DNA of 64,000 nucleotides from the NCBI RefSeq assembly GCF_017833255.1, contig NZ_JAFIBU010000001.1, positions 4,508,501 through 4,572,500 on the forward strand. Reading direction: 5' to 3'. Positions 16,315 to 49,025 of this stretch are shown here, one piece after another (the stretch's first letter is position 1; each line of letters begins with the position of its first letter). The DNA comes from Paenibacillus sp. PvR098 (GTDB lineage: Bacteria > Bacillota > Bacilli > Paenibacillales > NBRC-103111). The notes below the pieces were generated by a model that worked only from the letters and a program-made list of their open reading frames with translations, was not told the origin of the DNA and did not search any database. The position numbers were made by a program, and so were the translations under genes.

Positions 16315-16361
16315 AAAATATACAAGCCAGTGCTTTCAAGGCACTGGCTTGTATATTTTTT
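16315..16361. terminator. Bidirectional terminator between pbuX and the collagen-like gene
   Basis: AAAATATACAAGCCAGTGC at 16315-16333 pairs perfectly with its complement at 16341-16359. The stop codon of the convergent collagen-like gene lies in the T tail. Confidence 0.9.
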
Positions 16362-16953: not shown

Positions 16954-17012
16954 TTCAGCACTCCTTTCTAAATGGATCATTCGGAGAACGGTCTGGGACG
17001 GCGGAGCTTAGG

Positions 17013-19049: not shown

Positions 19050-19173
19050 AGGGTGCCTCCTTTCATAAACGATTATTGTTTTAACATTTCTCCCTATGAT
19101 TAAGATATGATTTGCACAATCAATTGACAGGTACACCGGTACAGTGAATTTCTTCCTAAATAGCTTACAGTGT

Positions 19174-19216
19174 AAAAAAGCATCTCCCCTCAGCTTTATG
19201 AGGAAAGATGCTTTTT
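19174..19216 (-). terminator. Terminator of the tandem P-loop gene
   Basis: On the minus strand GCATCT and CCTCA pair with TGAGG and AGATGC, followed by six T. It separates the P-loop gene from the PKD gene promoter region. Confidence 0.8.
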
Positions 19217-19231
19217 GCAGTACGGAAGATC

Positions 19232-32383: not shown

Positions 32384-33568
32384 ATGTATCGTCCCGATGT
32401 AGCTATTGTGACGCCCGGGTCCTTCGTTATTCCTTCCGGCAAAAGCAGTTCCGTCGAGCTGGTAGTGGAGCAGGTGGCAAGCCGGATCAAGAGCCATATT
32501 CGTTTGGTTGTCTTAGGCCGGTTGGGCCGGTTGCCGGCTTCGGAGGTCCGTCAGGGAGTAAGATACATCCGGGTACCTGCGCCCTCCCCTCAGCAGTATA
32601 TCCGCAGTGTCAGCCGCAAGCTGGCTTCATTACGGCCGCAGGTGATTCAGGTGGAGAACCGCCCGAGGTTTGTTCGATATTTACGTCGAAGATTTCCGCA
32701 AGCACGCATATGGCTGTCGCTGCACTCGGTAACTTTTGTTTCCATGCCGCATATCGGCCCCAAGGAGCTGCAACGATGCTTGGCCGCGGCGGACCGGATT
32801 GTGGTCAACAGCTGGTTTCTAAAGGAACAGATTGAACGAAAAGATCCGGGGTCTGTGAACAAAATTGTGGTGAATCATCTCGGTGTGGACCCGGAGCGCT
32901 TTATGACGCGATGGTCCCCCGAAGGAGCCGCCAAACGCGAGATGATGCTGCATCGTCATGGATGGCAGGACCGGAAAATCATCCTGTATGTCGGCCGATT
33001 GATCCCCATGAAGGGCGTGCATCGTCTGTTTAAAGTCATGCCGCAGATCATCCAGCAGGTGCCAAGCGCCCTATTGCTAGTAGTAGGAAGCGCCTACTAC
33101 GGCTCGAGAAGAATCACGCCTTACGTCCGCAAACTCCGCAGGAACGCAGCGAAGCTGAACCCCCATGTTCACTTCATCCCGTATGTGTCTCATGGAGAAG
33201 TCGATGAGTGGTTCCGTCTTGCGGACGTGCTGGTTGTACCGTCTACGAATAAAGAAGCGTTCGGGCTTGTCAACGTGGAGGCGATGGCATCCGGCGTTCC
33301 TGTGATAGCCACGCGGGCCGGCGGGATGAAAGAGATTGTAGAGGACGGGATAACCGGCAGGACACTGCAGCTTTCATCACTGGGGACGGAGCTGGCGCCT
33401 GCCGTGACCTGGCTGCTGCAAGATGAAGAGGAAGTCCGCCGGATGGGGGAAAAGAGCGTTGATCGGGTGCTAAATCATTTTACATGGGAACAAACGGCGG
33501 CAAGATTTTTGGACTTGTATCAGATGGAGGGTATCCGTCTATCTGAAGGAGATCTTCAGCCGTTTTGA
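32384..33568 (+). CDS. Glycosyltransferase family 4 protein, CotSA-like
   Basis: This 394-residue GT-B enzyme has the C-terminal GT4 donor-binding motifs IILYVGRLIPMKG and the EX7E block within EAFGLVNVEAMASGVPVIA. The N-terminal acceptor domain has SVELVVEQVAS. It resembles CotSA/YtcC spore-coat glycosyltransferases of Bacillus in length and motifs. AAAGGAGG lies 6 bases before the ATG. It is the first gene of a spore-surface-like block, 194 bases before the long repeat protein. Spore location is inferred from its neighbours. Confidence 0.82.
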   Translation: MYRPDVAIVTPGSFVIPSGKSSSVELVVEQVASRIKSHIRLVVLGRLGRLPASEVRQGVRYIRVPAPSPQQYIRSVSRKLASLRPQVIQVENRPRFVRYLRRRFPQARIWLSLHSVTFVSMPHIGPKELQRCLAAADRIVVNSWFLKEQIERKDPGSVNKIVVNHLGVDPERFMTRWSPEGAAKREMMLHRHGWQDRKIILYVGRLIPMKGVHRLFKVMPQIIQQVPSALLLVVGSAYYGSRRITPYVRKLRRNAAKLNPHVHFIPYVSHGEVDEWFRLADVLVVPSTNKEAFGLVNVEAMASGVPVIATRAGGMKEIVEDGITGRTLQLSSLGTELAPAVTWLLQDEEEVRRMGEKSVDRVLNHFTWEQTAARFLDLYQMEGIRLSEGDLQPF

Positions 33569-33667: not shown

Positions 33668-33695
33668 ACCTCCTTTTGGGTGAATGCATATGTTA
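33668..33695 (+). promoter_or_regulatory. Sigma-K-like promoter of the decapeptide-repeat gene
   Basis: AC at 33668-33669, a 17-base spacer, and CATATGTTA at 33687-33695 match the sigma-K consensus (AC, 16-17 bases, CATAnnnTA). The -10 ends 67 bases before the start codon, and GGAGG lies between. This indicates late mother-cell expression. Confidence 0.55.
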
Positions 33696-33762: not shown

Positions 33763-36700
33763 ATGAAAAAGGTGAGCCGCCGGAGTTCCGGCAAAGTCAG
33801 ACCGACTCGAACGAAGCGAGTCGGTGCGTTCATTAATGAATTGAGCTGGTTGGATGAAGCGAGTACGGAGTGGACAGAAGAGGCAAGCCCTGAGGAGTCT
33901 GCCCCCGAAAGCGATCTTGAAGCGAATTCTGGTCAGGAGATCGTACCGACGGTACCATCCCCATCTCCAACTCCGTCTCCAACTCCAACTCCAACTCCAA
34001 CTCCAACTTCAACTCCATCTCCATCAAAGGGAATTTCTTCGAATGCCCTGTCCGCTTCAAGCGCTATGGTCTATACAGATGATTTGGCTAACGAGTCGGT
34101 GACGTCGGAGAAGATAGCGCGTTATGCTGTCGACGGATATAAAATTAAGCGCGGCAGCATCGGAAAGGATCATATTATCGATTATGCAATTGACGGCACG
34201 AAGCTTGCTAACGGCAGCATAACTCAACAAAAGCTGTCACCTGGGGCAGTTACAGAAGAGAATCTGGCAGTAGGTTCCGTCACCACGGACAAAATTCAGG
34301 ATCGGGCGATCAGCGGGTTGAAGCTGCAAAACAACAGCATCACGTCAGAGAAGCTGGCGGACAAAACGATCGATGCGATGAAAATCGCAGAGCACTCGAT
34401 TCATACGAAACACTTGGCCGACGAAGCGGTTACGGCTGAGCTGATTCAGAACCAATCCGTCACGTCCGACAAAATTAAAAGCGGAGCCATCCAAACCATT
34501 CATATGGCCAACGGCTCCGTCAATACGGCGAAGCTCGCCGATGGGGCGGTTACCCCGGAGAAGCTGAAGGATTTGTCTGTAACATCCGCCAAACTGGCCG
34601 ATGGGGAAATCAGTACTAGTAAATTGGCCACAGGAGCGGTGACGGAGGACAAATTGGCGCCTTGGAGCGTTGCCTCCGAGCATATCAAGCTGCATTCGAT
34701 TGTTCACGGTCATTTGACAGCAGGGCTCGTTCAAAGCGAAAACATCGCTCCAAAGCAAATTGAAGCAGGACACTTGTCTGAAGGAGCTGTGCAAGCCGTT
34801 CATCTCAAGGATGGCGTGATTACTTCCCCCAAGCTTTCCAAAGGGGCGGTACAAGGTGCGCATTTGCAGGATGGAGTTATCGATGGAAAGCACGTCCAGC
34901 AGGGTGTAATTGAAAATCGTCATCTGTCGGCTCGAGCTGTTACAGGCGATAAGCTGGCGGCATCCAGCGTTGGCGTGTCCCAACTGACAGACGGGGCGGT
35001 GACGGCGGAGAAGCTGGCGGAGCATGCTGTAAACTCCAGCAAGCTGGCTAAGGGCTCGGTGAAAGCAGAGCATTTGGTCGCCGGGACGGTAGGATCGGGA
35101 CATTTGGCCGAGAAAGCCGTGCTGACGGGACATTTGGCGGCAAAGGCGGTTGCTGTTGAGCATTTGCAGGACCGAGTCGTGACAACGGAAAAGCTTCAGG
35201 ACCGTGCGGTTACTTCAGAGAAGCTGAGCAACGGAGCGGTCTTGCAGCAGCATCTCCATGAGGGAGCCGTGCTGACCGGACACTTGTCAAACCACAGCGT
35301 AACGACCTCGAAGATATCCAGCGAATCGGTTTCAACGGATAAACTGACCAATTTGGCTGTCACAACGGCAAAGCTGGCGCATGCCAGTGTGACTCCAGAG
35401 AAAATCGGAAAGGAAGCAATACAGGCGGAGCATCTTTCTCCCGGGGCGGTTCAGCATGTGCATCTTGGCAAATCATCCGTTAGGACACAGCAATTGGAGG
35501 ATGGGGTTGTAACGACGGAGAAGCTGGCCAAAGGAGCGGTTACCGGGCTTCAGCTTGCTGAGGGTGCGGTGCGCTCCTCTAACCTGGCCGAAGGTGCAGT
35601 AGACGGCAGCCGGCTCGCTCCGGGGTCTGTATCGACCGAGCATCTGAGACAGGGGGCGGTCGGGGCATGGCAGCTCGCCACCGATGCGGTGGGTGAAGCT
35701 CAATTAAGGATTCAGGCAGTGACTACCGAGAAGCTGGCGCTCGGCGCAGTAGATGCCAGACGATTGGCCGCAGGCTCCGTTGCATCGGAGCACCTGAGCT
35801 CTGGCTGCATCGCATCGGGGCACATCGCCGCTGAAGCGATAGGCGAAGGGCACCTGGGGCCCCAAGCGGTGACAACGGAGAAGCTGGCGCCTGGTGCGGT
35901 AGATGGCAGCCGTCTGGCGGAGGGGGCCGTTGTGTCGGAGCACCTGGCCTCCGGCGCCGTCGGATCGGTACAGCTTGCTTTTGGATCGGTCAGCGAAGTG
36001 CACTTGCAGCCGCAGGCGGTGACGAAGGAGAAGCTTGCGCGCGGTGCGGTGGATGGCAGCCGGTTGGCTGCAGATTCCATAGCGGCGAAGCATCTGACCT
36101 TGGGCTCCGTTGGTTCGGAGCACCTAAGGGAAGAATCGGTAGGCGAAGCGCACCTTCATCCGGGGGCGGTGACGGCGGAGAAGCTGGCGCCCGGCGCGGT
36201 AGTCGGCAGCCGGTTGGCCGCAGCCAGCGTTGCATCGGAGCACCTGAACCCGGGCTGCGTCGAGTTCGAACACCTAAGGGAAGAATCGGTAGGTGAAGTG
36301 CAGTTGCAGCCGCAGTCGGTCACAACGGAGAAGCTGGCGTCCGGTGCCGTAGACAGCAGCCGGCTGGCTGCTGGCAGCGTCGCATCGGAGCACCTGTCCT
36401 CGTGCAGCGTTGAATATGAACACCTGGCCGAAGAATCGGTAGGTGAAGTGCACTTGCAGCCGCAGGCGGTGACGAAGGAGAAGATTGCACGCGGTGCGGT
36501 AGACGGAAGCCGGTTGGCGGCAGAATCGGTTACGGCGAAGCATCTGACCCCGGGCTCGGTTTTTTCAGAGCATCTTGCTGCAGGAACGGTAGGCGAAGAT
36601 CAGCTTCAACCGGAGGCGGTAACGGCGGAAAAGCTGGCATGCGGTGCGGTGGTTGGCAGCCGGTTGGCAGCGGGCTCTATCGTATCAGAGCACCTGACTG

Positions 36701-38058
36701 TAGGCTCCGTTGATTCAGAGCATCTGATCCCAGGTTCCGTCGGCTCGGCTCAACTGGCGGAAGGATCGGTAGGCGAAGTGCAGCTGAGTCCGGAGGCGGT
36801 GACCACAGAGAAACTGGCCCCAAGTGCGGTAGATGGCCGTCGTCTGGCAGTCGGATCGGTCACCTCGGAGCATCTGACCCCGGGCTCGGTTGGCTCGGAG
36901 CATCTGGCCGAAGAATCGGTAGGTGAAACACAGCTCCAGCCGGGAGCAGTGACGGCGGAGAAGCTGGCGCCCGGAGCGGTGGTCGGAAGCCGGCTCGCGG
37001 CGGGCTCGATTGAAGCGGATCATCTGACTCCAGGCTCCGTAGAATCGGAGCACCTAAGGGAAGAATCGGTAGGCGAAGCACATCTGGGGTCGGGTGCAGT
37101 AACGACGGAGAAGCTGGCGCCCGGTGCAGTAGATGGCAGCCGTCTGGCGGCGGGCTCCATCGCATCAGAGCACCTGACTCCGGGGGCCGTGAGATCGAAG
37201 CACCTGGCCGTAGACGCGGTGGGTGAGGCGCAGTTGAGGCCGCACGCGGTGACGACGGAGAAGCTGGCTCCTAGTGCGGTAGACGCGAGCCGTCTGGCAG
37301 CAGGCTCCGTGTTAGCGAAGCACTTAGGCGATGGATCCATTGATGGAATGCATATTAAGCAGGAAACGATTTCCGGCTATCATCTGATCCCGGGAACCCT
37401 CTCTCTGCTGCACCTCGAACCCGAGCTTCAATCTCTGCTGAGCGGACTGTCAATCAAAAAAGCGCTTCGGGTGACGAGTGCCCCTGCTGACACGGATTTG
37501 GTCAGGGAAGCGGCTGCATATCTGGTGGGAGATGCGGATGCAGCGTCTGAGACGGAAGAAACGGCGGAACTGATGGAACCAGCCGGGGACGAGGAATCCT
37601 CAAGGGGTACCGCGGTAACAGCTCTGCTGGAACTTGCCGCAGAGCCCTACGTTGAAGCGATCACGGAGCCGGCAGAGGAACTGGATAACGATAAAATCGT
37701 CCTGCACTCGATTTCAGAGGATACTCTGACGGTCTTCGATAGTAAGGACGTCGGATTGCATCCTGAGCCTATCCTGCATGCAGAGGCCAGCTTACGGATG
37801 ACCAATGCACAGCTATTTGGTCTAAGCAGCTTCTCTTTGCCCGCAGAATCGGAAAGTGTCACCGTTGAGGTAACCTTCGAAAGGGCGTATGCTGACGAAA
37901 ACTATGTTCTCGTTGGTACGACGAGTCACCCGGGCTGTTATGCCGTGATCCAAAGCAAGCAAGCAGACTGTGCAGTTATTGAAGTCGTACGATGCAAATC
38001 TTCAGAAGAGCTTCAAGGGTCTGTCAACTGGATTGCCATCGGCGTCGCATATGAATAA
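33763..38058 (+). CDS. Giant decapeptide-repeat protein, putative spore-surface fibre
   Basis: The 1431-residue protein has five parts. Residues 1-20 are basic, about 21-62 acidic, and 65-88 a Pro/Thr/Ser linker. Residues 112-1221 are exactly 111 tandem decapeptides with no break, pattern [AS]-[VI]-x3-[KHQR]-[LI]-x2-G. A non-repetitive acidic then beta-rich domain of about 210 residues ends with VNWIAIGVAYE, which fits what I recall as the Paenibacillus WIAG-tail domain. There is no signal peptide. A hydrophobic residue every five positions suggests a beta-solenoid or trimeric beta-fibre. AGGAGG precedes the ATG, and a sigma-K-like promoter lies upstream. Its neighbours are glycosyltransferases, so it may be glycosylated. 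Confidence 0.88.
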   Translation: MKKVSRRSSGKVRPTRTKRVGAFINELSWLDEASTEWTEEASPEESAPESDLEANSGQEIVPTVPSPSPTPSPTPTPTPTPTSTPSPSKGISSNALSASSAMVYTDDLANESVTSEKIARYAVDGYKIKRGSIGKDHIIDYAIDGTKLANGSITQQKLSPGAVTEENLAVGSVTTDKIQDRAISGLKLQNNSITSEKLADKTIDAMKIAEHSIHTKHLADEAVTAELIQNQSVTSDKIKSGAIQTIHMANGSVNTAKLADGAVTPEKLKDLSVTSAKLADGEISTSKLATGAVTEDKLAPWSVASEHIKLHSIVHGHLTAGLVQSENIAPKQIEAGHLSEGAVQAVHLKDGVITSPKLSKGAVQGAHLQDGVIDGKHVQQGVIENRHLSARAVTGDKLAASSVGVSQLTDGAVTAEKLAEHAVNSSKLAKGSVKAEHLVAGTVGSGHLAEKAVLTGHLAAKAVAVEHLQDRVVTTEKLQDRAVTSEKLSNGAVLQQHLHEGAVLTGHLSNHSVTTSKISSESVSTDKLTNLAVTTAKLAHASVTPEKIGKEAIQAEHLSPGAVQHVHLGKSSVRTQQLEDGVVTTEKLAKGAVTGLQLAEGAVRSSNLAEGAVDGSRLAPGSVSTEHLRQGAVGAWQLATDAVGEAQLRIQAVTTEKLALGAVDARRLAAGSVASEHLSSGCIASGHIAAEAIGEGHLGPQAVTTEKLAPGAVDGSRLAEGAVVSEHLASGAVGSVQLAFGSVSEVHLQPQAVTKEKLARGAVDGSRLAADSIAAKHLTLGSVGSEHLREESVGEAHLHPGAVTAEKLAPGAVVGSRLAAASVASEHLNPGCVEFEHLREESVGEVQLQPQSVTTEKLASGAVDSSRLAAGSVASEHLSSCSVEYEHLAEESVGEVHLQPQAVTKEKIARGAVDGSRLAAESVTAKHLTPGSVFSEHLAAGTVGEDQLQPEAVTAEKLACGAVVGSRLAAGSIVSEHLTVGSVDSEHLIPGSVGSAQLAEGSVGEVQLSPEAVTTEKLAPSAVDGRRLAVGSVTSEHLTPGSVGSEHLAEESVGETQLQPGAVTAEKLAPGAVVGSRLAAGSIEADHLTPGSVESEHLREESVGEAHLGSGAVTTEKLAPGAVDGSRLAAGSIASEHLTPGAVRSKHLAVDAVGEAQLRPHAVTTEKLAPSAVDASRLAAGSVLAKHLGDGSIDGMHIKQETISGYHLIPGTLSLLHLEPELQSLLSGLSIKKALRVTSAPADTDLVREAAAYLVGDADAASETEETAELMEPAGDEESSRGTAVTALLELAAEPYVEAITEPAEELDNDKIVLHSISEDTLTVFDSKDVGLHPEPILHAEASLRMTNAQLFGLSSFSLPAESESVTVEVTFERAYADENYVLVGTTSHPGCYAVIQSKQADCAVIEVVRCKSSEELQGSVNWIAIGVAYE
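33955..34025 (+). repeat. CCAACT/CCATCT hexanucleotide microsatellite
   Basis: Tandem hexamers encode the Pro-Thr/Pro-Ser linker of the repeat protein. A repeat-number change would alter linker length in steps of two residues without shifting the frame. Confidence 0.9.
34096..37425 (+). repeat. 111 tandem 30-base (decapeptide) repeats
   Basis: I divided the reading frame into consecutive ten-residue units from Ser112 to Glu1221. Every unit keeps a hydrophobic residue at positions 2 and 7. Early units vary; later ones are nearly identical. Long antisense frames across this stretch arise from the periodicity. Confidence 0.95.
35686..37365 (+). repeat. Higher-order 150-base (50-residue) super-repeat
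   Basis: Decapeptides 54-109 fall into eleven copies of a five-unit block whose units begin roughly SVGE, AVTTEKLAPG, AVDGSRLAAG, SVASEHL and SVGSEHL. One copy carries a single extra decapeptide (SVGSAQLAEG, unit 89). This points to recent amplification by unequal recombination. Confidence 0.9.
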
Positions 38059-38103: not shown

Positions 38104-38331
38104 ATACATATCGGCTGCATCATGGTTTGGGATCGGCCTACCTCAGCTTAATGTCGGCCCTACATGATAAACGTCCATAATGCGTACAAGGATGATGCAT
38201 ATCATATCAGCATAGATCGATATGCACTCCTTTCGGAAGGGCAGCCCGTGACAGGGATTGTCCTTGGGCACGGAAGTCACTTGGAACGGAATGGCGATTC
38301 CGCTTTTAGAGGAGGGTAGGGAAAATCACCG

Positions 38332-39183
38332 ATGAGAATTCTAGTCATAGACGGTCATGCATTGGCTGGCGGAATGGTATTTCAGTACTTATCTGAACAC
38401 ACGCAGCATGAGCTTTTTTTCACAAGTCGGGAGAAAGAACATCGTCCGTACAGTCTTTATCTCGATGCCAAAGATCCTGTAATGGTTGAAAAATTAGTCG
38501 AAGTGATTCGTCCTCACATCATCATCAACAGTATCGGGCTCATTAACGATCTAGCCAGACAGCAAGAAATTGATGCTTATCGCATTAACGGACTGCTGCC
38601 TCAGCAATTGGCTGACTTGGCGGACCGGCAGAAATCGAGACTGATTCATCTGAGCACAGACAGTGTCTTTCTTGGTGACCGCGGCTCTTATGAAGAACGG
38701 CATGTTCCCGACGGGAACACCGTCTATGCCAAGACGAGATCGCTTGGAGAGGTAAGGCGCGCTCCCCATCTTACTATACGTACTTCTCTGCTGGGTCCGG
38801 ATCTAGACAACCCTTGCTGTGGATTATTAAGCTGGTTTCTGAAACAAAGAGGAAGCGTGAGGGGATTTGTAAGTGTTCCTTGGAACGGCATTACTACACT
38901 GGAATTGGCCAAGTTTGTCCATGATATTATTGATCGGCCCAAAGCGCTGAGCGGGATCGTCCATTTAGCCTCAGAGGAGAAAATCAATAAATACGAGCTG
39001 CTGGAGCAGCTGCGAACGATTTTTCATATACAAGGCGTTGTGATTCAACCCGATGATGCTATTACACTGGATCGCACGCTAAAATGTACACGCAAGGATC
39101 TGGATTATGTCATTCCGCGCCATCATCAAATGCTGCGTGAGCTTTACCAGTGGATGGTCAGTCACGGTTTATCCGGACGCTGA
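38332..39183 (+). CDS. RmlD-like SDR, nucleotide-sugar reductase/epimerase family
   Basis: This 283-residue extended-SDR protein has an N-terminal Rossmann fold with an altered glycine motif (IDGHALAGG). NSIGLIN, the substrate-side LIHLSTDSVFLGDRGSYEE block, and RTSLLG match dTDP-4-dehydrorhamnose reductase relatives. The catalytic pair reads VYAKTRSLGE, so the expected Lys four after Tyr is Arg. The probable role is making or modifying a nucleotide sugar for the neighbouring transferases; the product cannot be named. The gene begins 273 bases after the repeat gene. Confidence 0.78.
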   Translation: MRILVIDGHALAGGMVFQYLSEHTQHELFFTSREKEHRPYSLYLDAKDPVMVEKLVEVIRPHIIINSIGLINDLARQQEIDAYRINGLLPQQLADLADRQKSRLIHLSTDSVFLGDRGSYEERHVPDGNTVYAKTRSLGEVRRAPHLTIRTSLLGPDLDNPCCGLLSWFLKQRGSVRGFVSVPWNGITTLELAKFVHDIIDRPKALSGIVHLASEEKINKYELLEQLRTIFHIQGVVIQPDDAITLDRTLKCTRKDLDYVIPRHHQMLRELYQWMVSHGLSGR

Positions 39184-39343: not shown

Positions 39344-40462
39344 CTACTTGTTGTGTGATTGTACTTTCCTGCATTGGGCGAGCAGATACTTTGCATAAGC
39401 CATGGGGTTCTCATAAGTGGCTTTCCATTCTTCCAGCATACCGGCTTCCCGAAAACTGTACCGCTGGTCCTTTCCATTGCATTCAATAAACAAGGGATTA
39501 CCGTCCGCCGTTATGCCGATATCCAGCCCCAAGTCGGCCAAATCCGGTAGGTTGTTCCCCAGATGAGAAGCTATCCTTAGCGAAAAATCATATATATTCT
39601 TGATCACTTTTTTCTGCTTTAGACGGGGGTATTCCTCCTGTAAAATGTCCTCCAGCCGATGAACCTTGCCTCCTTGGGCTACATTGGTCAAGAAACAGCT
39701 TTTAGAAGCCACTTTGGCCACATATCCCGTGATCTGCCATTCGCCTGAAACTCCCTTTTGTACAGATACCCGTAGATCGAAGGGGCGCCCCTTGTAGGTT
39801 GCCAGGGGCAGGCACTGCTGGACGATATATTTCCCCTTTAGAAGTCTGCGCCGCAGGATCCGGGGCAGTCTGGAGCCGCTGAATTTAGCCGTACGCCAGG
39901 CTTTGTTGCGTACGCTGAGCGTGACCGGATACTCTAAGCTCCAACCGGTTGGGGTGCGGTCCAGCTTCATCACCCCTCGTCCTATGCTGCTTTTATTCGG
40001 CTTAACGATGATAGAATCGAACAATTTCATCAGGCTTCTTACATTCGCCGGGGTGGCTCGGCAAGTCCGCGGCAAATGGGGAATGAAAGCGGGGTCTGCC
40101 ATGAGCAGATTGTGAATGGTTAGCTTGCCGTAGCGGTTCCAGCGATTAAACAGCTGCTTCCCTTCACCCGCCCAAGATTGGAGCTTGCGGAACTCCCGTA
40201 TGCCGGGATAAATAGCGCGATTATGAATAACTTGCGGCGAAGGAATGGTCGTTAAAACAAACTTGCCGTCGGTGGATTTGACATAAGCCTTCACATGAGC
40301 CCTTCCCGCCTTAACATCGTGAATACGAAAAAAGCATGGCGTAAAGCCGAATCTCTTGCCCGCCTCTACGTAAAAATCAACCCTCTCGTGTTTTGTTTTT
40401 CCTGTAGGTATTCTACAGTGCAGCTTATCATTGACGAGGATGCCCACGTAGGGAGGTAGCAT
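39344..40462 (-). CDS. YheC/YheD-family ATP-grasp protein (spore-coat associated)
   Basis: This 372-residue protein has the YheC/D N-terminal region (MLPPYVGILVND) and an ATP-grasp core. Visible motifs are IVKPNKSSIGRGVMKL, FDLRVSVQKGVSGEWQITGYVAKVA, and the metal-binding ADLGLDIGITADGNPLFIECNGKDQR. B. subtilis YheC and YheD are sporulation proteins, YheD forming rings around the forespore. The reaction is unknown, though ATP-grasp enzymes ligate a carboxylate to an amine or thiol. The ATG at 40462 has AAAGGAG 8 bases upstream. It is the only minus-strand gene inside the glycosyltransferase block. Confidence 0.85.
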   Translation of the reverse strand: MLPPYVGILVNDKLHCRIPTGKTKHERVDFYVEAGKRFGFTPCFFRIHDVKAGRAHVKAYVKSTDGKFVLTTIPSPQVIHNRAIYPGIREFRKLQSWAGEGKQLFNRWNRYGKLTIHNLLMADPAFIPHLPRTCRATPANVRSLMKLFDSIIVKPNKSSIGRGVMKLDRTPTGWSLEYPVTLSVRNKAWRTAKFSGSRLPRILRRRLLKGKYIVQQCLPLATYKGRPFDLRVSVQKGVSGEWQITGYVAKVASKSCFLTNVAQGGKVHRLEDILQEEYPRLKQKKVIKNIYDFSLRIASHLGNNLPDLADLGLDIGITADGNPLFIECNGKDQRYSFREAGMLEEWKATYENPMAYAKYLLAQCRKVQSHNK

Positions 40463-40618
40463 GGCACTCACTCCTTTGTCCTAAGAATCGGACTTCATTT
40501 GACCTTACAGTATATGTAACAGAAGGAAAGGGGGTTTGGACAGGTGACGTGGGCATTCAACGGGATGTCTGCCTGCACTGGTCATAAGCCAATTTTTAAA
40601 AGGAGAGGTTATTGGTCT

Positions 40619-40717
40619 ATGTCCATAACCACCCCGGCGCATATCCTTTTAGGAGTAGTTCTTTTGTGCATAGTGAATTTGTCCATTTCAAGTTATGCTG
40701 AAGGATGGTGGCTCTAA
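40619..40717 (+). CDS. Small hydrophobic 32-residue peptide, coupled to galU
   Basis: A 32-codon frame begins at ATG 40619 after AAGGAGAGG and ends with a TAA whose last base starts the galU ATG (TAATG). The peptide has one hydrophobic segment (HILLGVVLLCIVNLSI) with few charges, so it could be a small membrane protein. Strong ribosome binding and the exact overlap argue for translation, perhaps only to couple galU translation. No family is recognised. Confidence 0.4.
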   Translation: MSITTPAHILLGVVLLCIVNLSISSYAEGWWL

Positions 40718-41616
40718 TGAAGGTCCGAAAAGCAATTATTCCGGCTGCTGGTTTGGGTACCCGCTTTCTTCCGGCTACCAAAGCCATGCCGAAAGAAATG
40801 CTTCCTATTATTGATAAGCCGACGATTCAATTCATTGTGGAGGAGGCGGTGGCTTCCGGTATTGAAGATATCATCATCGTGACCGGCAAGGGCAAGCGGT
40901 CGATTGAGGATCATTTTGATGCCGCCTTCGAGCTAGAGTATCATCTTCTCCAAAAAGGCAAGGTGGAGCTTCACCAGAAAGTGCAGGAGCCCTCTCGCAT
41001 GATCGATATCCATTATATTCGCCAAAAAGAGCCGATGGGCTTGGGGCACGCGATCTGGTGCGCCAGAAAATTTATCAAGGACGAACCGTTTGCCGTGCTG
41101 CTTGGAGATACCTTTGTGCAAGGAGAGCGCCCTTGCTTAAAGCAGATGATGGATTACTACGATCGCTATAAAACGTCGATCATCGGTGTGCAGCCTGTGA
41201 AGGAAAGCAAAGTGTCCAGTTATGGCATCATCGACGGGCAGCATATGCACGACCACTTCTATGCGATTACCCGTCTTATAGAAAAGCCGAAGCCGGAGGA
41301 TGCGCCTTCAAATTTGGCGATGATTGGAAGATATATTCTGACACCCACGATCTTCCCTATTCTGGAGCATCAAGAAGCGGGATTCGGACAGGAAATTCAA
41401 TTGACCGATGCCATCTCTAGGCTGAACGAGCTAGAAGCCGTCTATGCCTGTGAGATTGACGGCGTATGGCATGATGTTGGCGATCAGGCCGGATATGTCC
41501 GAACGATGCTTGCCATTGCCGCACAACGGGACGATATCAAAGAGCAGCTGTTTGAGCTTCTGCCAACGCTGTTAAAGCAGCGGGAAGGAAGGAGCGGGGA
41601 CTTCGATGACGATTGA
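40717..41616 (+). CDS. galU: UTP-glucose-1-phosphate uridylyltransferase
   Basis: The enzyme makes UDP-glucose. The 299-residue protein has the nucleotidyl-transfer motif IIPAAGLGTRFLPATKAMPKE near the start, EKP in LIEKPKPED, and VWHDVGDQAGY near the C-terminus. ATG 40717 is preferred to 40705 because AAGGATGG lies upstream of it. Placed directly before glf (11-base overlap), it probably feeds a UDP-sugar pool for the downstream transferases. It may be one of several GalU paralogues in the genome. Confidence 0.93.
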   Translation: MKVRKAIIPAAGLGTRFLPATKAMPKEMLPIIDKPTIQFIVEEAVASGIEDIIIVTGKGKRSIEDHFDAAFELEYHLLQKGKVELHQKVQEPSRMIDIHYIRQKEPMGLGHAIWCARKFIKDEPFAVLLGDTFVQGERPCLKQMMDYYDRYKTSIIGVQPVKESKVSSYGIIDGQHMHDHFYAITRLIEKPKPEDAPSNLAMIGRYILTPTIFPILEHQEAGFGQEIQLTDAISRLNELEAVYACEIDGVWHDVGDQAGYVRTMLAIAAQRDDIKEQLFELLPTLLKQREGRSGDFDDD

Positions 41617-42706
41617 TTTTTTGATCGTCGGCGCCGGGTTCTCCGGCTGCGTATTGGCACGGGAGCTGGCAGAGAAGCTTGATAAACGAGTGCTGGTCGT
41701 TGATACAAGAAATCATATCGGAGGCAATGCGTATGACTGTTATGACGATGCCGGCATTCTGATCCAGCCTTACGGACCACACATCTTTCATACCAATAGT
41801 AAAATGGTGTTTGATTATTTATCCCAATATACGGAATGGATATTATATGAACACCGTGTATTGGCTCAAGTCGATGGACGCAAGGTGCCGATACCGATTA
41901 ACCTGGACACCATCAATGAGCTTTACGGGCTTCGTTGTTCCGAGAAAGAACTCTCCGCATTCTATGATGCGGTCCGGCAACCTGTGGACCACATTACCAA
42001 TTCAGAGGACATCATCATCAGTAAAGTGGGCGTTGAGCTGTACGACAAATTTTTTAAGCACTATACCAAAAAGCAATGGGACTTGTGGCCGTCGGAGCTG
42101 GATTCCTCGGTTTGTGCAAGAATACCGGTACGGACGAACAGGGATCCCCGCTATTTCACCGACAAATATCAGGTAATGCCCAAGCGCGGATATACCCGCA
42201 TGTTCCAGAGAATCATCGATCACCCGAATATTCAGATCATGCTGCAAACGGATTATAAGCAGATTAGCAGCATCATCCCTCACCGGTATTTAATATATTC
42301 GGGTCCGATCGATACCTTCTTCGATTACAAGTTTGGCAAGCTGCCTTACCGTTCGCTGAATTTTACATTCGAAACGCTGGATCAGCCGTTATTTCAAGAA
42401 GTGGGCGTAGTGAACTATCCCATGTCCTATGATTTTACGCGAATTACCGAATTCAAGCATATCACGGGGCAGCAGCACCCAAGAACGACGATTTTGTACG
42501 AATACCCTTCGGCCGAAGGGGACCCGTATTACCCGATTCCCAGAGAAGAAAATAACCGGATCTACCAGCTGTATAAACAGGAAGCGGAGCAGCTGGAGAA
42601 CGTTTGGTTTGTCGGACGCCTTGGAACTTACAAGTACTATAATATGGACCAAGTGGTGGCGCAGGCTTTGACTTTATTTGAAAGCAAATTAAGAAACCTC
42701 CTATGA
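41606..42706 (+). CDS. glf: UDP-galactopyranose mutase
   Basis: This 366-residue flavoenzyme interconverts UDP-galactopyranose and UDP-galactofuranose. The FAD motif is FLIVGAGFSGCVLARELAE, followed by HIGGNAYD. GPHIFHTN and the substrate-site region YKQISS to YSGPIDTFFDYKFG are typical, as is the final FVGRLGTYKYYNMDQVV. The ATG follows GAAGGAAGGAG and overlaps galU by 11 bases. Its presence predicts galactofuranose in the glycan made by this cluster. No galE is seen in the window. Confidence 0.95.
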   Translation: MTIDFLIVGAGFSGCVLARELAEKLDKRVLVVDTRNHIGGNAYDCYDDAGILIQPYGPHIFHTNSKMVFDYLSQYTEWILYEHRVLAQVDGRKVPIPINLDTINELYGLRCSEKELSAFYDAVRQPVDHITNSEDIIISKVGVELYDKFFKHYTKKQWDLWPSELDSSVCARIPVRTNRDPRYFTDKYQVMPKRGYTRMFQRIIDHPNIQIMLQTDYKQISSIIPHRYLIYSGPIDTFFDYKFGKLPYRSLNFTFETLDQPLFQEVGVVNYPMSYDFTRITEFKHITGQQHPRTTILYEYPSAEGDPYYPIPREENNRIYQLYKQEAEQLENVWFVGRLGTYKYYNMDQVVAQALTLFESKLRNLL

Positions 42707-42729
42707 GCATAGGAAGGAGTGAACTGTCC

Positions 42730-43551
42730 GTGATATTTTGTACGCTTGTACGGAAGGAACAGCTGGCTAACGCGATCGTACTTGCAAAATCCGTGAAATC
42801 CTTTCATCCCCATGCCCGGATCGTACTCTGTCTGGCAGAGCATCATGTGTCTGCAAATCATACTTCATTGTTCGACGAAGTTGTGATTGTGACCAATAAC
42901 GGTCAGCCCTTCGATTCAGCGGAAAGCTGCTGCGCTGCCAAAGCCTATTTGTTAAGGCAGCTGCTTGCCTCACATGCAGATGAGAAGATCATCTATCTGG
43001 ACCCGGAAATTAAATTATTCGAATCGTTTAAAGAGATCGAACAGCTGCTTGACCGGCACGATATTATCGCAGCTCCTTATCATTTGGAGCCCTGCGATAT
43101 GGAGGAGTATGGTTGGGAGATTGAACGGCTGCAGAATGGGTTTCTGCATGCAGGATTTCTTGCCCTTCGAAGCTCGGAGACCGGGAGAAGGTTCAGCCAG
43201 TGGTGGTCCCAGCATGTCGATAATAGCTTCTATGGCCCCTCCAAAGACGGGTGGGCGGATCATAAATGGTTAAGCCTGGCCATGGTGCCTTTTCATATCT
43301 ATCTACTCAAAGACCCTTCGTTTCATGTCGCCGCTTGGAACGTTCACGCAAGCGGCAGAACCATCTCTTTATCTTCGAAAGGCCATTATATGGTTAACGG
43401 CCAGCCGCTTCATTCCTTTCACTTTATGAATACAAACGGGATGCTGGACCAACGCTTGGGGTCGTTTATTCCCGATCAAAGTAAGCCGGTGCATAAACTG
43501 TTTCAATCTTATCGAGGGGAGCTAGAGCTTACCAATCAATCCTTATCGTAA
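42730..43551 (+). CDS. GT8-like glycosyltransferase
   Basis: This 273-residue GT-A-type protein is related to the N-terminal half of the next gene. Shared blocks are VIFCTLV, the HPHARIVLCL strand, AGFLALRSSETGRRFSQWW, and YMVNGQPLHSFHF. The metal motif reads LDPEIKLF, where the paralogue has IDTDTQIL, so the usual DxD is altered. The GTG at 42730 is preferred because AAGGAG lies 10 bases upstream and the paralogue starts at the matching point. An ATG at 42703 overlaps the glf stop and has no ribosome binding site. Confidence 0.75.
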   Translation: MIFCTLVRKEQLANAIVLAKSVKSFHPHARIVLCLAEHHVSANHTSLFDEVVIVTNNGQPFDSAESCCAAKAYLLRQLLASHADEKIIYLDPEIKLFESFKEIEQLLDRHDIIAAPYHLEPCDMEEYGWEIERLQNGFLHAGFLALRSSETGRRFSQWWSQHVDNSFYGPSKDGWADHKWLSLAMVPFHIYLLKDPSFHVAAWNVHASGRTISLSSKGHYMVNGQPLHSFHFMNTNGMLDQRLGSFIPDQSKPVHKLFQSYRGELELTNQSLS

Positions 43552-43564
43552 GGAGGTCATGTCC

Positions 43565-45643
43565 ATGATCATCTGCACAATGACTACAGCCAGTCATTTA
43601 TTCAGGGCCAAGGTAATGGCCAATTCCGCCAAGAAGCATCACCCCGACGCCATGGTAGTCGTTTGCTTAATCGAAAAAGCACTGCATCCGTCGGCAGGGG
43701 AATTCGCTTCGTTCGATCACGTGGTGCTCGCCAAAGACCTGGGTATTCCGAACTTCGACGCCTACTTATTTAAACGAAATGTTCATGAAGCCTCCTTTGC
43801 GCTTAAAGGCCATTTTCTTAAATACTTGTTCCGAACCTACCCCGGCGAGAATGAATTCGTGTTTATTGATACCGACACACAAATCCTGAGTCCGCTGGAC
43901 GAAGTCCGGGATGCCCTGCGCGATCACTCCATCGTATTGACACCGCATGAAGTTAACGACGCAAAGGAGAGCCATTATTTTCACGGCATCTTTAACATCG
44001 GTTTTATTGCCCTAAGCAGAACGGGAGATACCGGGCGCTTTCTGGATTGGTGGATCCGCCGGGTGGACCGGTATTGTTATGATCACTATCAAAACATGGG
44101 ATTGTTCTATGAACAAACCTGGCTCGATTTGGTCCCCACGTTGTTCGATACGAAGATCTTGCTGCATCCCGGATATAATGTGGCGTTTTGGAATTTACGG
44201 GAGAGAGGGCAGTCCATTGCGCAGGATGCAAACGGTCAATATACGGTTAACGGCCAGCCTCTTCGATTCTTCCATTTCTCTAACATGACCGGGGCTTTGG
44301 CCGGTTCCATGAAAAGATTTATTCCGGATGAGAAGGCAGTCATGTATAAGCTGTTCCGTTCCTATCTGAGAGAGCTGAAACGAATGGGACGAAGGACAGC
44401 AGGCCGCCTTCGCTGGAGTTATGATTATTATACTAGCGGTGTGAGAGTCTCCCAGAAAGCACGCGCTCTGTTCAGGGAGGAGCCGGACCTGGAAAATAAG
44501 TATCCTAACCCCTATCAATATTCCAATCGAACCTTTAGAACCAAGTCTTCCTTACGAATTGTTCAAGTCGTCTCCAATGCCCCGGACGCGTATCCTGTAC
44601 CCCCTATCGATCAAGGAGGTACGGAAAAGGTGGTCTACGAGTTGACGGAGGAGCTTGTAAAAAGGGGTCATCAGGTGTACCTGTATGCTGCCCTGGGAAG
44701 CAGAAGCAGCGCCAAATTGATCCCGTATCCTTCCCATATTCGTGCAAACCATATAGGGAAATATGTAGGCAGTACGCTGCCACCCCGTGTGGATATCATC
44801 CATGACCATACGTTCAATTCGGCCGTCAGCCGGAGCCGACGGAGAATTCCAACATTGTGCACTCAGCATATCACACGTAATTACGGGGTTCCCCATTCCG
44901 TTTATGTGAGCAAGCGTGCGCTAGAGGTGATCGGCAAAAACAAAGGCTTCCATGTATATAACGGAATCGATCCGAATCAATACGAGTTCAGTGAGGAGAA
45001 GCGGGATTATCTGCTCTTTATCGGAAGGATCATTAGAGAAAAAGGAATTATGGAAGCGATAGACGTTGCCGAGAGAACGGGGAAAAAATTGATGATTGCC
45101 GGACCCATAAAAGACAAAGAGCTGTATGAGAATGAAATTCAACCCAGGATCGAGGGCAATTCGAACATTGAATATGTAGGCACGGTAGGCGGAAAGCAGA
45201 AGCAGGAGCTCATCAAGCACGCCAGGTGCTTACTGTTCCCTATTCTGTGGGAGGAGCCCTTCGGACTTGTCATGATCGAAGCCATGGCTTGCGGTACTCC
45301 GGTGATTGCTTTTGCGAACGGCTCCGTCCCGGAAGTTATGTCGGGTTTCCCTAATCTGATCTGCACGACGGTGGATGAGATGGTTCAGAAAGTGCTGCAC
45401 GAACCGCTTCCCGATCCTCATGCGCTCCGTGATTATGTAAAAAGACACTTTACGATGGAGCTGATGACGGACCGTTATTTGGAAATCTATGAGCACATAA
45501 GAAGTAAAGCCCGCAGGATCGGAGGAAAGAAAAAGGGGAGGTTGCTGGGTAAACGGGCACGAAAGCTGAGATTGGTTATGAGGAACAGACGGAGAAAAGG
45601 AACCGGCGTCAAAAGGAGAATAAGAAGAACCGTTCCCGCTTAG
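43565..45643 (+). CDS. Two-domain glycosyltransferase (GT8-like plus GT4) with basic tail
   Basis: The 692-residue protein joins three parts. Residues 1-270 form a GT8-like GT-A domain with the DxD-type motif IDTDTQIL. Residues 335-640 form a GT4 GT-B domain with PIDQGGTEKVVYELTEELV, LLFIGRIIREKG and EEPFGLVMIEAMACGTPVIAF. The last 45 residues have 22 Lys/Arg and no acidic residue. Two catalytic units would add two linked sugars. AAGGAGG lies 8 bases before the ATG at 43565. The N-terminal half is a paralogue of the preceding gene, from which it is 13 bases away. Confidence 0.83.
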   Translation: MIICTMTTASHLFRAKVMANSAKKHHPDAMVVVCLIEKALHPSAGEFASFDHVVLAKDLGIPNFDAYLFKRNVHEASFALKGHFLKYLFRTYPGENEFVFIDTDTQILSPLDEVRDALRDHSIVLTPHEVNDAKESHYFHGIFNIGFIALSRTGDTGRFLDWWIRRVDRYCYDHYQNMGLFYEQTWLDLVPTLFDTKILLHPGYNVAFWNLRERGQSIAQDANGQYTVNGQPLRFFHFSNMTGALAGSMKRFIPDEKAVMYKLFRSYLRELKRMGRRTAGRLRWSYDYYTSGVRVSQKARALFREEPDLENKYPNPYQYSNRTFRTKSSLRIVQVVSNAPDAYPVPPIDQGGTEKVVYELTEELVKRGHQVYLYAALGSRSSAKLIPYPSHIRANHIGKYVGSTLPPRVDIIHDHTFNSAVSRSRRRIPTLCTQHITRNYGVPHSVYVSKRALEVIGKNKGFHVYNGIDPNQYEFSEEKRDYLLFIGRIIREKGIMEAIDVAERTGKKLMIAGPIKDKELYENEIQPRIEGNSNIEYVGTVGGKQKQELIKHARCLLFPILWEEPFGLVMIEAMACGTPVIAFANGSVPEVMSGFPNLICTTVDEMVQKVLHEPLPDPHALRDYVKRHFTMELMTDRYLEIYEHIRSKARRIGGKKKGRLLGKRARKLRLVMRNRRRKGTGVKRRIRRTVPA

Positions 45644-45681
45644 ATGAAGCTTCAGACTAGAAACCAAGGGAGGGAGCATCC

Positions 45682-46638
45682 ATGGGGGAAAAGCGTAACC
45701 TCATCATTGCCAGAGTCGGAGACCGTTCACTTCACCACGAATGGCTGCAGCCGGCGGAATTCAAAAATTTTGATTTATGCCTTAGTTACTACGGCAATAA
45801 GCCGGACCGATATGCCCATGATGGAGAGTATTACTTTGAAAGCAAGGGAACCAAGTGGCCGAAGCTGTACGAACTGATGGAAACCCTGGGGGACAGTATT
45901 TTGGAGTACGACGCCATATGGTTTCCGGATGATGACATCAGCACGAATGCTCAAGATATTGCGCGGATGTTTGAGCTGTTTCACGAGCAAGAGCTCATGC
46001 TGGCGCAGCCGGCGCTGAACCAGAATGCTTTCTTTCAAGTCACGGTCCGGCATATTGACTTTAAATTAAGATACACCAACTTTGTAGAGGTCATGGTTCC
46101 GATTTTTTCCAAGGAAGCCTTGCGTGTGTGTTGGCCGACTTTTCGTAATAATTTGACCGGGTGGGGATTGGAGCATGTATGGGCAAAGCTGCTGAACTAT
46201 CCCCATAAGAAAATAGCCATTTTGGATGAAACGCCGGTGAAGCACACGAGGCCTCCGGGCCAGGGAGATTTGTACAGCAATATTCGATCGCAGTTTAACA
46301 TCAATATTCAGGAAAACAATGAAACGAAGATGCTGGAGCAATATGGTATTGTAGCCCCCGAACCAAGTGAGATCAAGCATTATGACGGAATCAAGGTGTG
46401 GGACCCGATTGCGGAGCTGCATGAGAAATCAAAGCGTGAATCAGGGCATGGGAAACGCTTGAGAAGACGAAGAAAGACAAGATGGAACACGCGGGCTCAG
46501 CCAAGGAAAAGAGTAGGCTTAGGGAAAAACAGAAAAGGAACCATCATGAAGAAAAAAATATCCGGCATGCGCAGAACCGTCGGGGGTGCTGCAGGAAGAG
46601 GGGCCCGAAGAATGACTAAGAAATCGAAGGCGGCCTAG
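45682..46638 (+). CDS. DUF707-like putative glycosyltransferase with basic tail
   Basis: Of 318 residues, the first 245 or so form a GT-A-like domain: NLIIARVGDRSLHHEW, then the acidic metal-site candidate IWFPDDDIS, and GWGLEHVWAKLL near the middle. This matches what I know of DUF707, a family seen in bacteria and plants. The last 70 residues hold 29 Lys/Arg with few acidic residues, like the tails of two neighbours. AGGGAGG precedes the ATG, and the gene lies 38 bases after the previous one. Confidence 0.7.
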   Translation: MGEKRNLIIARVGDRSLHHEWLQPAEFKNFDLCLSYYGNKPDRYAHDGEYYFESKGTKWPKLYELMETLGDSILEYDAIWFPDDDISTNAQDIARMFELFHEQELMLAQPALNQNAFFQVTVRHIDFKLRYTNFVEVMVPIFSKEALRVCWPTFRNNLTGWGLEHVWAKLLNYPHKKIAILDETPVKHTRPPGQGDLYSNIRSQFNINIQENNETKMLEQYGIVAPEPSEIKHYDGIKVWDPIAELHEKSKRESGHGKRLRRRRKTRWNTRAQPRKRVGLGKNRKGTIMKKKISGMRRTVGGAAGRGARRMTKKSKAA

Positions 46639-46824
46639 GGTAAGAATCGGAATGATCCTATGTACGATGACAACGGAGAGCGTCTGCACGGGGCCAAACT
46701 AGAAGAGTGGTGCCGATCGTAAGGCGTCTGTAAATTTTCTCGATGACCGGTTGGCGGGGCGTATACTCAAACCTCCTGCCAGCCGCAGGAAGAAATCTTG
46801 CAGCGGAAGTATGAGGTGGGATTG

Positions 46825-47898
46825 ATGATATTTGCTCTGCTTGCGCATGAAGACGAGCATACTCTGGCCGCCCAGCTGGACAATATTCGTCATTTTAATC
46901 CTGGATCGCGGATTGTGCTCTACAACGGGGGAACCGACCCCGATTTTGCCAGGAGGTTTGAACTACCGATCTGTCCGTACAGCCGTCCCTTGAATCACGG
47001 TAATCTGACCTTTTATATGTGGGATGTGATGAGATGGCTTGAGGAGGAGCATGTCGATTATGAATATTTGATCAATTTAGACCATGATTTGCTGTTCGTG
47101 AAGCACGGGTTCCAAGCCTTCTTGAATGAAACGATGGGGAAGTACGACTGTATGGGCTGGGATATGGTAACGAGTCGCAGCAGCGAGGATTCGGAACTGA
47201 CCTGTGTACAAACGATGTGGGACGAATGGCATCTATGGAAGCCCGTTTTCCAAACGGATCATTTTATTCGTTTTTTGAACCCTGCGCAGGTGTACCGCCA
47301 TCAGCTTGTCCGGTGTATGCTGGCTTCTGTTGATCGAGTGAAGATGGAACGCATGTTTTCAGAAACCCGCGTCTTTGCTCTGGAAGAAATGTTTTTCGTT
47401 ACGCTGGCGCTTAGTTGCGGGGGGAAGATCCGTGAATATCCTCGGGATGAGACATGGCACAAGGTTGCACGCTTTCAATGGCCGGGTATCAGTCATGAGG
47501 AGGCTTATCATGCCAGGGATCATCCTTATTACTTCTGGGTTCACCCGGTTAAAGGGATAGCGTTGTTCCAAATGCATCAATGGTTAATGTCCGGGGCAAG
47601 TTTTCCGCAAGAAGCCTTGTCCACTCCCGAGGAGCCTGCCGCTAAGCCCCAGGCAGCGTCGTCGGAAGTGCAGCGCTATGTCAGGAGAAGGAACCATAAA
47701 GCCAAGCGGAACACAAAGGTTAAACGGAAACCGGTTGTGAAGAAAAAGAAAATAAGCTTGAAAAGAACAGGGCTTCGCGGCAGCAGGAGGAGGAGTAAAC
47801 CGCTTCTTTACGGAAAAATGAAATCGGCCAAGAGCATACGAGGAAGATTGAAGGGGGCCAAGGGAAGGGGTGCGAAAAAACACAAAACCAGTGGATGA
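46825..47898 (+). CDS. Glycosyltransferase-like protein with basic tail
   Basis: This 357-residue protein begins LMIFALLAHEDEHTLAAQ, with a short-chain GT-A nucleotide-sugar fold (HFNPGSRIVLYNGG). INLDHDLLFV is a probable DxD metal site, and EEMFFVTLALSCGG comes later. The fold resembles GT14/core-2-type or related bacterial transferases; I cannot assign a family firmly. The last 76 residues contain 33 Lys/Arg. The ATG at 46825 has AGGTGG 6 bases upstream, but a TTG at 46798 with AGGAAG is also plausible. A terminator at 47925-47973 closes the operon. Confidence 0.7.
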   Translation: MIFALLAHEDEHTLAAQLDNIRHFNPGSRIVLYNGGTDPDFARRFELPICPYSRPLNHGNLTFYMWDVMRWLEEEHVDYEYLINLDHDLLFVKHGFQAFLNETMGKYDCMGWDMVTSRSSEDSELTCVQTMWDEWHLWKPVFQTDHFIRFLNPAQVYRHQLVRCMLASVDRVKMERMFSETRVFALEEMFFVTLALSCGGKIREYPRDETWHKVARFQWPGISHEEAYHARDHPYYFWVHPVKGIALFQMHQWLMSGASFPQEALSTPEEPAAKPQAASSEVQRYVRRRNHKAKRNTKVKRKPVVKKKKISLKRTGLRGSRRRSKPLLYGKMKSAKSIRGRLKGAKGRGAKKHKTSG

Positions 47899-47924: not shown

Positions 47925-47973
47925 GCAATAAGACCGACAAGGGGGGCCTATGGCCGGTTGTCGGTCTTATTGC
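47925..47973. terminator. Bidirectional terminator at the end of the glycosyltransferase operon
   Basis: GCAATAAGACCGACAA at 47925-47940 pairs with TTGTCGGTCTTATTGC at 47958-47973. It overlaps the 3' end of the convergent small-protein gene. Confidence 0.9.
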
Positions 47974-48271
47974 ATTTCTCTTGCTGTGAACCCGGGCGAT
48001 GACAATCATGAACCAGCGTTATGTTCACCCACGGTTTCTTCGGGGCTCCGACCCTTTTTCTCCGTATTTTGATTCCAATCATTTTGACGGCGATCTGCCG
48101 TTGATATCTGCTGATCGCTTCAATTTGTTCAACCAGTCTTTGCTCGGCTGCTCTCGTCTTAACCGTAACGTCTGCCACGCTTTCCAGGATTCTCGCCAGC
48201 GCGCGTTGACTTCGGGCAAGAGAATTCAAAATATGAAGCTTCGTTCGCGCTTCTTCCTCGTGCCAGTTCAC
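47948..48271 (-). CDS. Small helical protein C, function unknown
   Basis: This 107-residue, charged, helix-rich protein shares a motif with the two genes upstream of it (KLHILNSLARSQRALARILES). Its tail is basic and carries two cysteines (HDCHRPGSQQEKC). The start is GTG at 48271, overlapping the stop of the preceding gene (GTGA), with GGAGGA 8 bases upstream, so translation is coupled. Its 3' end runs into the shared terminator. Location next to coat-like genes suggests a spore role, unproven. Confidence 0.65.
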   Translation of the reverse strand: MNWHEEEARTKLHILNSLARSQRALARILESVADVTVKTRAAEQRLVEQIEAISRYQRQIAVKMIGIKIRRKRVGAPKKPWVNITLVHDCHRPGSQQEKCNKTDNRP

Positions 48272-48618
48272 TTTAAGCTTCCTCCGAATGACATAGGGTC
48301 AAGTCCCAGCAGGCCGCCGGCGTTGTCCGCATCATTCGCGCTGTTCTCCTTCTCCCCAATAAGCGCCTGAAGACCCTTGGCGAGCGCCTGTTCCATTTTG
48401 GTCATTCCGTCAATGACCTCGATTAATTGATCATGGATTTCCACGGTTTTGCGCAGCTGATCCCCATCTTGCTCAAACTGTGAGGAGGACATGTGATGGC
48501 AAAGCCATTGACTTGAACGTGATGCTTCAGCGGCCTTAGCCTCCAAAATTAACGATATGTTCAACTGGAATTGGGAAACGGAATTCAGTATCTTATGATA
48601 AGCTTCTTCTCTGCTCAT
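48268..48618 (-). CDS. Small helical protein B, function unknown
   Basis: This 116-residue protein is predicted mostly alpha-helical. It shares a pattern with its neighbours (HKILNSVSQFQLNISLILEAK), then has an acidic and hydrophobic heptad-like segment (IHDQLIEVIDGMTKMEQALA). The C-terminus is Gly-rich (ADNAGGLLGLDPMSFGG). The ATG has GAGGAAG 5 bases upstream. It is the middle gene of three minus-strand genes and overlaps the next by four bases. Confidence 0.65.
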   Translation of the reverse strand: MSREEAYHKILNSVSQFQLNISLILEAKAAEASRSSQWLCHHMSSSQFEQDGDQLRKTVEIHDQLIEVIDGMTKMEQALAKGLQALIGEKENSANDADNAGGLLGLDPMSFGGSLK

Positions 48619-48649
48619 ACTTACTTCCTCTTTTCCATTATCAAATAAG

Positions 48650-48940
48650 TTATTCTTCTCCTTCGGGGATTTCGACTTCTTTCATAATCAGTATCAAATT
48701 ATCTGCTATGGCATCGGATAGATCGGCAAGGCTGTTTAAGTAGGTTGCAATATTCTTAGTGACGCTTAGTGATTTTTCCATCAAATCCTCGATATCACGG
48801 AAGGTCGGGTTCTCATGCGGGATTTCATGAACGAGATGGGCCATACGCACGGCAACATGCCTCTTGGATTCAAGAATTTTGGTCATTTCCCAGTGCGAGG
48901 AGGCCATATATTCGATGATGTTTGTAACTTTTTGATGCAT
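48650..48940 (-). CDS. Small helical protein A, function unknown
   Basis: This 96-residue helical protein shares the pattern KVTNIIEYMASSHWEMTKILES with the two genes after it, and ends in an acidic MKEVEIPEGEE. Similar short proteins recur in Paenibacillus genomes, often with unreliable names. The ATG at 48940 has GGGAGG 7 bases upstream. A minus-strand CATATATTA at 48974-48982, 33 bases upstream, resembles a sigma-E/sigma-K -10 element, with no convincing -35. Confidence 0.68.
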   Translation of the reverse strand: MHQKVTNIIEYMASSHWEMTKILESKRHVAVRMAHLVHEIPHENPTFRDIEDLMEKSLSVTKNIATYLNSLADLSDAIADNLILIMKEVEIPEGEE

Positions 48941-48973
48941 AGCATATCCTCCCTCATAAACGAAATTCTTACA

Positions 48974-48982
48974 TAATATATG
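48974..48982 (-). promoter_or_regulatory. Possible sporulation-type -10 for the small helical genes
   Basis: CATATATTA on the minus strand fits CATAnnnTA (sigma-K) and matches most of the sigma-E -10. The -35 match is poor, so this is tentative. Confidence 0.25.
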
Positions 48983-49025
48983 CTGCAAGGCTTGACATGA
49001 ACCGTGGCATTCGCCTAATCTGAGC

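Follow-up and report, generated by a model that had tools for sequence, protein, structure and literature searches.

A WIAG-tail protein with a phage-fibre-like decapeptide shaft in Paenibacillus sp. PvR098, a probable fibre of the Paenibacillales spore surface

The window analysed here, a stretch of 64,000 nucleotides from Paenibacillus sp. PvR098, contains the gene of a very large repetitive protein set among genes related to sugar activation and transfer (Table 1). It is the only decapeptide-repeat gene and the only WIAG-tail gene found in the 4.70-Mb genome, and we refer to it hereafter as the fibre gene. Its product consists of a K/R-rich head, a linker, a long shaft of decapeptides, a second linker and a C-terminal tip domain.

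Table 1. Features of the fibre gene and its surroundings, in window positions.
Feature	Position	Strand	Evidence
Family-4 glycosyltransferase, directly upstream in many relatives	32384..33568	+	PF00534 6.5e-38; synteny
Sigma-K-type promoter: AC (33668-33669), 17-bp spacer, CATATGTTA (33687-33695)	33668..33695	+	perfect match
Fibre gene	33763..38058	+	1431 aa ORF
K/R-rich head ending in NELSWLD; proposed anchor	33763..33855 (motif 33835-33855)	+	motif conservation
Pro/Thr/Ser linker, residues 62-88, variable among relatives	33946..34026	+	sequence, relatives compared
Shaft, 111 gapless decapeptides, residues 112-1221	34096..37425	+	register analysis; PHROG tail-fibre matches
First 20 decapeptides, conserved unit by unit, gapless between relatives	34096..34695	+	alignment
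Expanded shaft part, 12 x 50-residue (5-unit) super-repeat, residues 612-1211	35596..37395	+	lag analysis
Acidic linker, residues 1222-1339, variable in relatives	37426..37779	+	sequence
WIAG-tail tip domain, residues 1340-1431, six-stranded beta fold (predicted)	37780..38055	+	NF012201 1e-28; AlphaFold2
RmlD-like dTDP-sugar reductase	38332..39183	+	PF04321 1.1e-19; synteny
YheC/D-like ATP-grasp protein, syntenic across order	39344..40471	-	PF14398 3.9e-61
Sugar-nucleotide pyrophosphorylase (GalU-like)	40705..41616	+	PF00483 6.6e-34
UDP-galactopyranose mutase	41606..42706	+	PF03275 4e-78
Glycosyltransferase-like cluster	42703..47898 (42703-43551, 43559-45643, 45682-46638, 46798-47898)	+	
Three small adjacent proteins	47948..49048	-	near locus in L031, L051, L064, L066, L067

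The sequence-only reading had divided residues 112 to 1221 into 111 consecutive units of ten residues with neither insertion nor deletion, and we recovered the same division, as well as the coordinates and the length of the reading frame. Hydrophobic residues occupy positions 2 and 7, as that reading had it, in 111 of the 111 units, compared with at most 16 units in 2000 composition-preserving shuffles of the repeat region. Position 2 is V in 87 units, I in 23 and L in one, position 7 is L in 95, I in 14 and M and V in one each, and together the two positions take 222 of the 272 V, I, L, M and F residues of the region. Self-identity of the shaft is 0.34 at lag 10 and 0.45 at lag 50 and only 0.07 at lag 5; because of the difference between lags 10 and 5, the unit of sequence is taken as ten residues and the period of hydrophobicity as five, such that the five-residue spacing proposed before holds for hydrophobicity and the sequence itself repeats every ten. 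The second half of the shaft appears to owe its length to the duplication of blocks of five units, since its super-repeat is also visible in the DNA as a 150-bp tandem. The first 20 units align across 27 sequences (26 relatives and the window protein) over 211 columns with 0 gaps and a mean column identity of 72%, and this unit-by-unit conservation indicates selection. Among the relatives, the longest uninterrupted shafts comprise from 63 to 206 units, a length range of approximately threefold.

The basic head, the Pro/Thr linker and the separate C-terminal domain described earlier are all present in the sequence, the linker being rich in Ser as well, and the N-terminus carries no hydrophobic signal-like stretch, in agreement with the reported lack of a signal peptide. 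What had been overlooked is that the C-terminal domain already has a family name, WIAG-tail, and that the layout is found throughout the order: the Paenibacillales relatives have in common the K/R-rich head, the NELxWLD motif, a variable linker, a shaft starting from YTDD and the WIAG-tail. In its general form, [NDST][ED]LxW[LI][DEN], the head motif was found in each of the 27 relatives whose N-terminus is intact, and the back-translated pattern occurs a single time in the genome, within the fibre gene. One relative (L029) is a short protein, with an open frame of 335 aa, that has the head motif NELDWLDD and a WIAG-tail without any decapeptide shaft, an arrangement that points to a core of head and tip able to exist without the shaft.

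The profile search of the C-terminal part that had been suggested found the NCBIfam model WIAG-tail (NF012201), matched by residues 1350-1427 at 1e-28 with 99.2 bits against a curated cut-off of 33; by this score the protein is a member of the family. The AlphaFold2 model of the tip is confident (pLDDT 93.1, pTM 0.80) and its fold matches the C-terminal domains of the phage tailspike LKA1 gp49 (Z 10.6) and of the R1 pyocin fibre (Z 9.9), the Helix agglutinins, which are H-type lectins (Z 8.7-8.9, rmsd 2.3-2.5 over 78-80 residues), and the Gp53-like tip 4mtm (Z 7.3). Among viral predicted structures, the matches were tail fibres and H-type lectin domains. From the model, the tip of the window protein is predicted to have the H-type lectin fold. 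Tailspike, R-pyocin tip and H-type lectin folds work as trimers. Gp53-like_C (PF21882) scored 15.3 bits on the window tip, below the Pfam gathering score of 24.9, and a weak match to it, below the curated cut-off, appears in 15 of 22 WIAG-tail members (best E 0.0014).

The shaft, for its part, matched tail-fibre families in PHROG, with E-values down to 3.2e-200 for phrog_892, and its profile matched 208 phage records. The fibre nature proposed for the protein is thus supported, as both its shaft and its tip are similar to those of phage tail fibres. The proposal of a stacked beta fibre was not borne out: the AlphaFold2 monomer of the shaft has short helical turns and not strands, at a pLDDT of 51, and as the model is this poor the stacked beta structure stays unproven. 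Such a model would be expected for an obligate oligomer, yet is no proof of one. The shaft repeat is shared with PDB 9eg4 'orf16' (about four decapeptides) and with the cyanophage fibre gp28 (8i4m); no publication was found for 9eg4, and for gp28 the P-SCSP1u paper speaks of resolved N-termini, and therefore no solved structure of the decapeptide shaft is confirmed. A further match of the shaft profile, at 4.5e-05, is to decapeptides of Legionella DotG/IcmE (PDB 7muc), a likeness that is probably convergent.

Approximately 95 bp upstream of the fibre ATG lies the element AC-N17-CATATGTTA. Published sigma-K promoters have a -35 element with C at the fourth position and the same -10 element as sigma E (PMC517825), and the SigK-dependent promoter of Bt bclA is CAC-N16-CATATGTTA (PMC4750369), to which the fibre promoter is nearly identical in sequence. 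In 19 relatives AC-N17-CATAnnnTA precedes the orthologue with a spacing that is invariant although the surrounding DNA varies; of the 28 upstream regions compared, that of the window among them, 20 have a perfect promoter and 8 differ from it by a single base, the variant AC-N17-AATATGTTA being found upstream of the orthologue in 8 further relatives. Among more distant genera, it is exact in L076 and has one mismatch in L067, L075 and L080, and no clear match was seen upstream of the orthologue in L064, L066, L071 and L072. As the exact pattern occurs at four sites in the genome, the other three not evidently at spore genes, the weight of the promoter lies in its position and conservation and not in its rarity. 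The -10 element, common to sigma E and sigma K, does not separate the two, and this counts against the assignment to sigma K.

Across the order, GT4, rmlA/B/D, further glycosyltransferases and YheC/D recur around the fibre gene, such that its placement among sugar-transfer genes, pointed out before, is a conserved linkage and not an accident. YheC and YheD of B. subtilis are spore-coat-associated. Near the fibre gene of relatives a DUF3880 and Glyco_trans_1_2 pair is seen, the architecture of CgeB, a spore-surface maturation protein. In the glycosyltransferase-like cluster, 42703-43551 and 46798-47898 had no confident family match and are given a putative glycosyltransferase role from position and resemblance. 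The last three proteins of this cluster (43559-47898) end in long K/R-rich tails, in character like the fibre head, and may dock on the same layer as the head does. No basal-layer protein of the CotY/CotZ family (PF10612) was found in the genome, and a Bacillus-type exosporium lattice for anchoring is therefore not evident.

Sigma-E/K-like elements lie upstream of RmlD (AT-N16-CATATCATA, 38180-38206, + strand) and of YheC/D (AC-N17-CATATACTG, 40508-40535, - strand), and in several distant genera, too, the three small proteins at 47948-49048 lie close to the fibre gene. Elsewhere in the window, a small collagen-like protein (16360-16980, - strand) with a Cys-rich N-terminus and a Pfam Collagen match at 1.4e-10 looks BclA/ruffle-like and is possibly a second spore-surface protein; its gene is adjoined by that of a 740-aa protein with K319L-like PKD domains (17013-19235, - strand).

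The WIAG-tail was found in 269 of 298 Paenibacillales genomes, usually as one copy; in some genomes two such genes lie side by side (e.g., G014:C1:11305-14840). In a sample of the phylum, 6 of 398 genomes had it, all members of the order, and none of the about 390 sampled Bacillota genomes from outside the order did. The list of WIAG-tail genomes was compared by hand with that of genomes with the sporulation marker SpoIVA, present in 282 of the 298. The WIAG-tail occurs in 268 of these 282 and is missing from 14. Fifteen of the 16 SpoIVA-negative genomes come from one genus (g29), with the WIAG-tail in 0 of 15, and since this is a single genus the co-absence stands for one evolutionary loss and not for 15; the sixteenth, G221, is a 70%-complete assembly and has the WIAG-tail. 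Late production in the mother cell, as suggested by the sequence-only reading, gains independent support from the sigma-K-type promoter, the SpoIVA co-absence and the syntenic YheC/D gene, and on these genomic grounds production of the fibre protein at the time of sporulation is well supported. A search of the literature (WIAG-tail, Paenibacillus spore nap, decapeptide fibres) found no experimental description of such a protein, nor any sign of it in proteomic, transcriptomic or microscopic work. Within the papers searched, the WIAG-tail name was found in one use, for an algal virus protein, the tail fibre BQ1_177 of Chrysochromulina parva virus, which is annotated with the domain (PMC12085832).

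We consider it probable that the protein is a mother-cell-made fibre, projecting from the Paenibacillales spore surface, probably trimeric and glycosylated, with the build of a phage tail fibre. The earlier interpretation is thereby kept in its late mother-cell production, its sugar-gene linkage and its fibre, and left unsupported in its stacked-beta shaft. The gene would be transcribed late in the mother cell by sigma K, possibly also by sigma E, and the product, having no signal peptide, would be retained in the mother-cell cytoplasm. The basic head and the NELxWLD motif would deposit it on the forming spore, and the decapeptide shaft would, in the manner of phage tail fibres, trimerise and project outward. 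The WIAG-tail, as a trimeric lectin-like tip, would cap the fibre and set its register, and it may serve to bind a carbohydrate or some other surface. Decoration of the fibre may be the task of the dTDP-sugar and glycosyltransferase genes next to it, with the S/T residues at unit positions 1, 3 and 4 as candidate sites.

The main rival to a surface fibre is a long structural scaffold, buried in the inner or the outer spore coat, whose basic head, together with the basic tails of its neighbours, would cross-link the coat layers. The same promoter and sporulation evidence applies to it, and the YheC/D neighbour and the genome in which no CotZ family was found speak in its favour. However, the C-terminal fibre-tip fold and the conserved sugar genes suit an exposed structure better, and the roughly threefold variation of shaft length is easier to accept if the shaft projects than if it is part of a fitted scaffold; we regard the scaffold as unlikely.

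The lectin-like tip and the sugar gene cluster would also fit a vegetative cell-surface or secreted adhesin with a coincidental link to sporulation, which is quite improbable given that the protein has no signal peptide, no cell-wall anchor domain was matched, the promoter is of the sporulation type and the gene is absent from the non-sporulating genus. We give still less credit to the idea that a tail fibre of a phage or prophage, or a part of a phage-tail-like particle, was left in the chromosome. In its favour is the resemblance of shaft and tip to tail-fibre modules, but no other phage structural gene is seen nearby, nearly every genome of the order has one copy in a conserved gene context, the promoter is of the sporulation type, and no WIAG-tail relative was found in 50,697 phage records or in IMG/VR. 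A prophage remnant was rejected, as no phage genes were seen and the synteny is order-wide.

The spore-surface fibre that we favour would resemble BclA and BclA-like proteins of the Bacillus cereus group in having a mother-cell sigma-K promoter, which the fibre gene shows as judged by sequence and conservation, a repetitive shaft of variable length, a terminal trimer-type domain and glycosylation genes alongside. Unlike BclA, its unit is a decapeptide and not the Gly-X-Y collagen repeat (no Pfam Collagen match), its tip has the predicted tailspike/H-type-lectin fold and is not C1q-like (no BclA_C or C1q Pfam match), and the CotZ-family basal layer of the BclA exosporium has no counterpart found in the genome. 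With phage tail fibres (phrog_892; cyanophage, mycobacteriophage; gp53-like and R-pyocin tips) it shares the kind of shaft repeat and the tip fold, whereas its gene is chromosomal, order-wide and sporulation-linked, encodes a K/R-rich NELxWLD head, and is flanked by housekeeping and sugar genes and not by virion genes. The protein would thus work like BclA and yet is no BclA, and it has a phage-tail-fibre build and yet is no phage gene. The F-ENA endospore appendages (DUF4183; PMC11952670) are spore appendages that occur in Paenibacillaceae, but they are polymers of small subunits, whereas the window protein is a single giant chain for which Pfam gave no DUF4183 match. Pentapeptide-repeat solenoids (PF00805, HetL) also have a hydrophobic residue every five; such a solenoid is ruled out by the period of ten and the lack of a PF00805 match in Pfam, NCBIfam HetL reached an E of 0.045 only, far below its cut-off, and the monomer model of the shaft available for comparison is of low confidence.

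We also put forward, as a speculation more likely wrong than right, that Paenibacillales spores carry a domesticated receptor-binding fibre of the phage type where Bacillus has its collagen-type nap, with a trimeric decapeptide shaft and an active H-type-lectin-like tip for specific glycans, be it on soil polymers, roots, insects or neighbouring spores. The NCBIfam WIAG-tail model covers the 80-residue tail, the one part already named; the head motif, the shaft, the promoter, the synteny and the link to the spore come from the present analysis. Both plant-growth promoters and insect pathogens belong to the Paenibacillus order, and it is the spores of the order that travel and make first contact, with a covering of which little has been described. 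A giant protein that nearly all genomes of the order encode, usually in a single copy, and that promoter and distribution tie to sporulation offers a concrete candidate, open to deletion, for the outermost fibre of these spores, and a case of a cell using the blueprint of a phage fibre.
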